Assembly (NCBI GenBank): GCA_946611445.1
Contig: CAMODP010000056.1
Span: 1-10,618 of the forward strand
DNA from: an uncultured Eubacterium sp.
Lineage (GTDB): Bacteria > Bacillota > Clostridia > Lachnospirales > Lachnospiraceae
Direction: 5' to 3'
Length of the DNA stretch: 10,618 bases
Made by a program: the position numbers and the translations under genes. Under the pieces are notes generated by a model that was not told the DNA's origin, searched no databases, and saw only the letters and a list, made by a program, of their open reading frames with translations. Position 1 is the first letter of the stretch; each line of letters starts with the position of its first letter. Below, piece by piece: positions 8,424-9,249 of this stretch.

Positions 8424-8452
8424 TTGACTAACACAGTGAAATAGAATAGAAT
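8424..8452 (+). promoter_or_regulatory. Sigma-A promoter, divergent from hup, for the rubrerythrin transcript
   Basis: TTGACT (8424-8429) and TAGAAT (8447-8452) have a 17-bp spacer. Transcription would start near 8459, leaving a leader of about 245 nt, most of it the structured element at 8485-8679. Its -35 is 21 bp from the -35 of the hup promoter, back to back. A second candidate -10, TATAAT at 8481-8486, lacks a recognisable -35 at the right distance. Confidence 0.65.
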
Positions 8453-8484: not shown

Positions 8485-8679
8485 ATCTGATGATTACAAC
8501 GCCAAAAGTACTGAACCCACGCAAGCTTGCTTGCAGGTGGGTGAAAGTACTTGGGGCGTGCCCCGACATGAGGACGAAGTGGTGCGAAAGCAACACGAAA
8601 GTCCGAATGGCGGGAGGATTGTGGAAGCACGAAGTGCGAAACAATCCGTAATCTACTTTTGGCGTATGAATCATCTGAT
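8485..8679 (+). mobile_element. MITE-like, highly structured repeat element with terminal inverted repeats
   Basis: The outer 19 bp at each end (8492-8510 and 8654-8672) are inverted repeats with 16 of 19 positions paired, including a perfect 12-bp block ACGCCAAAAGTA/TACTTTTGGCGT. A 7-bp direct repeat ATCTGAT flanks them (8485-8491 and 8673-8679), as a target-site duplication would. Inside are four hairpins. Arm 1 is 8507-8551, with a 6-bp and a longer inner stem. Arm 2 is 8553-8564, GGGG-CGTG-CCCC. Arm 3 is 8572-8604, GGAC closing a stem capped by GAAA. Arm 4 is 8616-8647, GGATTGT/ACAATCC around GCAC-GAA-GTGC. No credible gene is inside. This fits a non-autonomous mobile element or a structured RNA in the leader of the next gene, or both. 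ATCTGAT is itself nearly palindromic, so the duplication is suggestive only. Confidence 0.55.
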
Positions 8680-8703: not shown

Positions 8704-9249
8704 ATGAAAAAATGGAGATGTACCGTATGCGGAACCATCGTTGAGGGAGATGCCGCTCCGGCCAAATGCCCTGTCTGCGGCGTTCCGGCAGAAAAGTTCG
8801 TAGAGATGGAAGAGGGCCTGAGCTGGGCCGCAGAGCATGTGGTCGGTGTCGCTTCCGATGTTCCGGAAGATATTAAGGATGATCTGCGTTCCAACTTCCA
8901 GGGCGAGTGCTCTGAGGTCGGCATGTATCTGGCCATGAGCCGCGTCGCTTTCCGCGAGGGATATCCGGAAATCGGCCTGTACTGGGAGAAAGCCGCTTAT
9001 GAAGAGGCTGAGCATGCCGCGAAATTTGCGGAGCTTCTGGGCGAGGTCGTCACGGACAGCACCAAGAAGAATCTGGAGATGCGTGTAGAGGCTGAGAACG
9101 GCGCCACCGCCGGCAAGACCGACCTGGCGAAGAGAGCCAAAGCCCTGAATCTCGACGCGATCCATGACACCGTGCATGAGATGGCAAGAGACGAGGCCAG
9201 ACACGGCAAGGCATTCAAGGGCCTGCTGGATCGTTACTTCGGTAAGTAA
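8704..9249 (+). CDS. Reverse rubrerythrin (rubredoxin domain first), peroxide-reducing
   Basis: A 181-residue non-haem diiron protein. The N-terminal rubredoxin-like domain binds one iron through CTVC and CPVC (C6, C9, C22, C25). A four-helix ferritin-like domain follows with diiron ligands in GECSE (E68, E71), the ExxH motif EEAEH (E101, H104), and DEARH (E164, H167). The rubredoxin-first order is that of 'reverse' rubrerythrins of clostridia, which reduce hydrogen peroxide and help in oxygen survival with NADH-derived electrons; such genes are often annotated as NADH peroxidase. ATG at 8704 has AGGTGG 7 nt upstream. An in-frame upstream extension through the structured element has no ribosome binding site and breaks the family start, so it was not used. 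The substrate role is taken from the family. Confidence 0.92.

Follow-up and report, generated by a model that had tools for sequence, protein, structure and literature searches.

The region between the HU gene (minus strand) and the rubrerythrin gene in the 10,618-nucleotide stretch of uncultured Eubacterium sp. DNA analyzed here (hereafter, the window) contains what we consider, with a probability of roughly 85%, to be a MITE-like mobile DNA element that carries one Clostridiales-1 RNA as its cargo. The analysis supports the view that the transposon and the structured RNA are one object, which is 183 bp long, or 181 bp with a 7-bp duplication, and which has spread among gut bacterial genomes. 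This would recast an orphan Rfam family, previously regarded as a probable sRNA, as what a repeated element with inverted ends and duplicated targets carries, so that attention shifts to read-through transcripts and movement, and away from a promoter devoted to the RNA or a gene under its control. In Lachnospiraceae genomes, the element would also allow recent insertions into leaders and intergenic regions to be traced.

The element and its surroundings comprise the following features:

8424..8452, plus strand: promoter-like site TTGACT-17-TAGAAT, 5' of the element (10 of 12 consensus positions; a consensus match only)
8485..8491, no strand: left direct repeat ATCTGAT (5-bp form TCTGA at 8486-8490)
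8491..8510, plus strand: left end (terminal inverted repeat), TGATTACAACGCCAAAAGTA; its pattern, TGATn5SGYCAAAAG, is present in 10 of 12 genomes and the backward control in none
8491..8654, plus strand: Clostridiales-1 RNA (RF01699), with the closing stem 8491-8497 paired with 8648-8654
8500..8558, plus strand: first hairpin, with the conserved GCUUGC segment (RF01699 structure line; covariation)
8562..8614, plus strand: second hairpin, with the AUGAG/CGAAU tandem G-A step, a GAA/GAAA internal loop and a GAAA tetraloop (RF01699 structure line)
8616..8647, plus strand: third hairpin, with a GGAA/GAA internal loop (RF01699 structure line; covariation)
8654..8673, plus strand: tail, which is the right end and the left end's inverted copy; equivalent tails occur in other copies
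8673..8679, no strand: right direct repeat ATCTGAT (5-bp form TCTGA at 8674-8678)
8704..9249, plus strand: rubrerythrin gene, the neighbor outside the element (PF21349 and PF02915)

Inverted ends, duplicated targets and sibling copies

A preliminary description of this DNA had proposed a small non-autonomous transposon, and this proposal is borne out by inverted ends, duplicated targets, many copies and near-identical siblings. Read by eye, 8492-8510 and the reverse-complemented 8654-8672 share 16 of 19 bases, including a perfect 12-base block, just as had been claimed, and the ATCTGAT copies reported to flank the element indeed form a perfect 7-bp direct repeat (8485-8491 and 8673-8679). The first seven bases of the left end also form the 5' side of the stem that closes the RNA.

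The window copy has the tailed form, defined as the RNA plus a short 3' end that inverts the 5' end (TGATn5SGYCAAAAG). Inverted terminal repeats bound such discrete copies at both ends, as they do in MITEs. Among 51 tailed copies (a set that includes one false regular-expression call, L113), 34 are bounded by an exact direct repeat of 5 bp or more (23 of 33 in the relatives and 11 of 18 on named contigs), as opposed to 3.15 on average and at most 10 of 51 when right flanks were swapped between copies (5000 trials). The repeat is 5 bp long in 30 of the 34 and 6 bp in four. Since 28 of the 30 can also be read as the 7-bp ATNNNAT, cuts of 5 bp at a preferred site are indistinguishable from cuts of 7 bp; L108 and L109 are compatible with a 5-bp repeat only, unless they have mutated. 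ATNNNAT is the usual target, and target-site duplication of fixed length is a further trait shared with MITEs. The 17 tailed copies without an exact repeat count against the mobile-element reading. Among untailed copies a direct repeat was seen in one of 55, that one being a tandem array, and we therefore confine the mobility reading to the tailed copies.

Direct-repeat and orientation counts exclude copies shorter than 140 nt. They draw on two copy sets, in which 91 of 100 hits (87 without duplicates) and 83 of 93 hits, respectively, were kept, while weak, tandem or cut-off hits were omitted.

In genome G015, seven further copies are 97–100% identical to one copy across about 200 bases and no further, and three more are 87–89% identical. 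Across five genomes, the median identity to the nearest sibling is 0.98 for tailed copies (n = 29) versus 0.80 for untailed copies (n = 25); by this measure the tailed copies are young. Five end-only remnants of 38–57 bp, with little beyond the two ends, were also observed (L119:3501-3552, L131:2565-2621, L132:3501-3557, L140:3001-3038 and L142:3001-3038), and L132 alone has an exact 5-bp repeat. Their existence suggests that the interior is dispensable for movement.

Movement presumably relies on a transposase supplied in trans, which would recognize both ends and cut the target with a stagger of 5 to 7 bp. No helper transposase with these ends was found (i) in the flanks of lone end-pattern copies; (ii) between inverted end pairs 0.4–6 kb apart with repeats among the loci collected, which yielded a single pair (L142) enclosing apparent host genes; (iii) among the proteins that recur beside copies; or (iv) at 28 PF01609/PF00665 places in nine genomes. 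Neither these flanks nor the 28 places contained an autonomous element with the same ends, which is a further mark by which MITEs are recognized; an autonomous relative from transposase families beyond PF01609/PF00665 may exist. Five weak end pairs, each carrying one or two mismatches, were rejected as chance occurrences, none of them having matching flanks (L311, L313, L314 and L323). Flank comparisons among loci yielded no clean empty site, and the relatives compared were too diverged. Two differing orthologous alleles in related genomes (L194:7026-7189 / L187:3106-3251, and L161:161-327 / L184 near 2016-2091) are partial losses, in which a full RNA copy is matched by one with an internal or 3' loss.

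Structured RNAs are encoded in other mobile elements as well, namely omegaRNA (IS200/IS605-type elements, IscB) and bridge RNA (IS110), and the position of the present RNA at the very end of the mobile unit would fit an RNA that, like these, directs its own movement. To our knowledge, however, omegaRNA and bridge RNA elements lack target duplications and come with a protein gene, whereas the present element, while likewise encoding a structured RNA, has target duplications and inverted ends. Furthermore, no recurrent partner gene of this type was found among the ORFs in the flanks compared: the proteins that do recur beside copies form clusters that look like large common families, the largest of which comprises 17 loci and is, by its letters, putatively ABC transporter-like. 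The 38- and 57-bp remnants are without most of the RNA, and one of the five remnants has an exact repeat. We consider it very unlikely that the RNA guides its own transposition.

The MITE-like reading places the element beside MITEs, RUP, BOX, ERIC and bcr1, which are short and protein-free and have inverted ends, target duplications and many copies. The element shares all of these properties; unlike them, it has as its interior a large, strongly covarying RNA family.

The Clostridiales-1 RNA in the interior

While the internal structure had initially not been recognized, it belongs to a described family: the interior matches Rfam RF01699, Clostridiales-1 RNA, over its full length (model positions 1-166 of 166) at 128.2 bits, as compared with a gathering score of 48, and has the same fold and the same conserved loops. 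The preliminary description placed the purine internal loops and the GAAA tetraloop correctly, and its closing stem with hairpins inside also stands; of the four hairpins that it counted, however, the RF01699 consensus retains three, the fourth, a small one, being confined to the minimum-energy structure computed for this one sequence. The segments ATGAG and GAAT, which lie opposite each other and are able to form a tandem G-A step, are invariant across 30 aligned RNA copies.

On either strand, the fold of the 195-nt stretch beats 200 of 200 dinucleotide shuffles (z = -8.3 for the plus strand and -8.2 for the minus strand). The compensatory changes in homologs whose absence had been named among the refuting conditions are strongly evident, and bear out the structured-RNA claim: among 91 distinct aligned copies, 60 of the 61 pairs have changed on both sides, standard pairs account for 86.1% of pair cells as opposed to 62.9% after shuffling, and the covariation score is 0.517 as opposed to 0.167, in an alignment that was fitted to the RF01699 model and is hence biased towards it. 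The covariation signal is lost when the partner is slid by 1 to 3 columns.

The fact that both strands fold well raises the alternative that the fold matters as DNA only, providing hairpins or protein sites for transposition or for nucleoid proteins. This would agree with a left end that serves both the inverted repeat and the closing stem of the RNA, and with the palindromic extension of the stem in untailed copies (a mean of 1.95 bases versus 0.76 with flanks swapped). However, G-U cells exceed A-C cells by about two to one (205 versus 126 over all pairs), and they still do so in the well-paired columns of a set thinned from 93 to 45 sequences (51 versus 22), an excess that is expected under selection on the plus-strand RNA. 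In addition, the copies lean to the sense orientation of their neighbors, as detailed below, and the dispensability suggested by the end-only remnants speaks against a role of the interior in movement. A fold that matters solely as DNA is, in our judgment, distinctly improbable.

Neighboring genes and the source of the transcript

Judged by its sequence, the promoter-like site TTGACT-17-TAGAAT is probably the rubrerythrin promoter, in which case the element would fall in the 5' leader of that gene; the region contains three promoter-like sites, versus a mean of 0.6 in shuffles. A regulator of oxidative-stress expression in this leader had been suggested, and the location of the element between the promoter-like site and the rubrerythrin start codon would suit a riboswitch or leader regulator of rubrerythrin. 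Yet the RNA reaches the gathering score at one of 20 rubrerythrin loci scanned, namely the window's own, and is absent from the other 19 (L053 was scanned without its upstream side, and four further loci with good matches lie outside the scan). The other RNA copies adjoin unrelated genes, so that the constant type of downstream gene by which a riboswitch or cis-regulator is recognized was not seen, and no terminator-like site was found in the rubrerythrin leader. Dedicated control of rubrerythrin is thus extremely improbable.

YchF was considered as a conserved partner site and rejected, as four of 30 YchF loci have a copy, in mixed orientation: two just 3' of the stop codon in sense (G000 and G017) and two opposite. 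We read YchF as a shared landing place rather than as half of a gene pair.

Where the RNA lies between two co-directed genes, according to mechanical gene calls, 46 copies are in sense and 17 in antisense. The ratio is 28 to 9 for untailed copies (p = 0.003) and 18 to 8 for tailed copies alone (p = 0.076), the latter a weak bias. Terminator-like sites occur in sense within 70 bp upstream of 20 of 123 copies (about 16%), as compared with six on the other strand and one at a control place 500 bp away, which argues against read-through at those copies.

Rfam classifies the family as 'Gene; sRNA', and the table of Weinberg et al. 2010 (PMC2864571) enters it as 'y' for RNA, 'n' for cis-reg and 'n' for switch, with the label 'Clostridiales, human gut', i.e., as probably an RNA that is not cis-regulatory. 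Passages in two papers from 2020 (PMC7302867 and PMC7682815) make bare mention of the family, and a search of open-licence PubMed Central (2010–2026) by family name and accession returned no paper on its mobility. These entries, as well as the conserved fold with invariant unpaired bases and the lack of a fixed neighbor gene, would be accounted for by an independent trans-acting small RNA gene that became repeated. On the other hand, the tailed copies share no promoter, their flanks being unique from the RNA's first base, and at least 38 scored copies in one genome would be unusual for such a gene; we regard this explanation as unlikely.

As unique flank starts at the RNA's first base in tailed copies, these carry no upstream promoter, which points to host-driven transcription. 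The element would start at the RNA's own first bases, leaving no room for a promoter of its own, and transcription that enters from host promoters, in most cases in the sense direction, would produce the RNA by read-through. Within the untranslated part of such a host transcript, the RNA may fold on its own into a compact piece that makes the insertion tolerable, and it could perhaps, as a guess, bind a host protein via its repeated G-A helices. Action of the RNA in cis is a tentative proposal, to which we give somewhat less than an even chance. That it serves the element itself, either by making insertions into host transcripts harmless or by controlling movement, is conceivable but doubtful; if so, Clostridiales-1 would be selfish, an RNA disseminated by DNA ends rather than a small RNA of the host.

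Distribution and variant copies

A search of the window's own genome and its relatives, as had been recommended, identified 15 matches in the former, 12 of them above the cut-off, in an incomplete assembly (1.95 Mb, 67% complete). In total, 32 of 61 genomes have a match (26 of them above the cut-off): all 16 of the same genus, 14 of 21 from the rest of the family and two of 24 from the order's other families. Copies scored per genome reach at least 38 in this search, and all counts are lower bounds. In an even sample of the class, with at most nine candidates scored per genome, nine of 291 genomes have a match, seven of these belonging to the same family, and the 14 control genomes across all of these searches gave zero matches.

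In named genomes, a pattern that covers the last hairpin and the closing stem of the RNA detected 83 loci, three of which (L235-L237) are absent from the named-genome RNA scan. They are titled Lachnospiraceae, Butyrivibrio, Lachnoanaerobaculum, Blautia or Lachnospira, the latter four being genera of Lachnospiraceae, or only Eubacterium, Clostridiales or Eubacteriales. The two end patterns had no match in viral contigs, and a search of plasmids for the element had none either. Partial matches (70–78% identity) are present in four unannotated 'Bacteriophage sp.' records from a phage collection from human feces (MT839471, MT837314, MT839381 and MT839615), which may be bacterial contigs.

Untailed copies often form head-to-tail tandem arrays of two or three, and decay is frequent in the later members (L083, L084, L092, L101, L111, L085, L027, L190 and L231). 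A separate subfamily (L009, L011, L092, L111-L114 and L034) is closed by TAAGTCC..GGACTTA and not by TGAT..ATCA. Its palindrome often continues into the flank (TGTA..TACA), and immediately upstream of four of the 13 copies examined lies a terminator-like site in the sense direction.

A 16-bp sequence, AAGTGCCCTGCGGGTA, has four identical occurrences in the window's own genome (C5:15478-15493, C194:3649-3664, C97:1699-1714 and C175:4216-4231; L293-L296) and none in 15 other genomes of the genus searched. Three of the four are clean inserts within RNA copies, two in the first-hairpin loop (L005 and L010) and one, in inverted orientation, in the second hairpin (L012).
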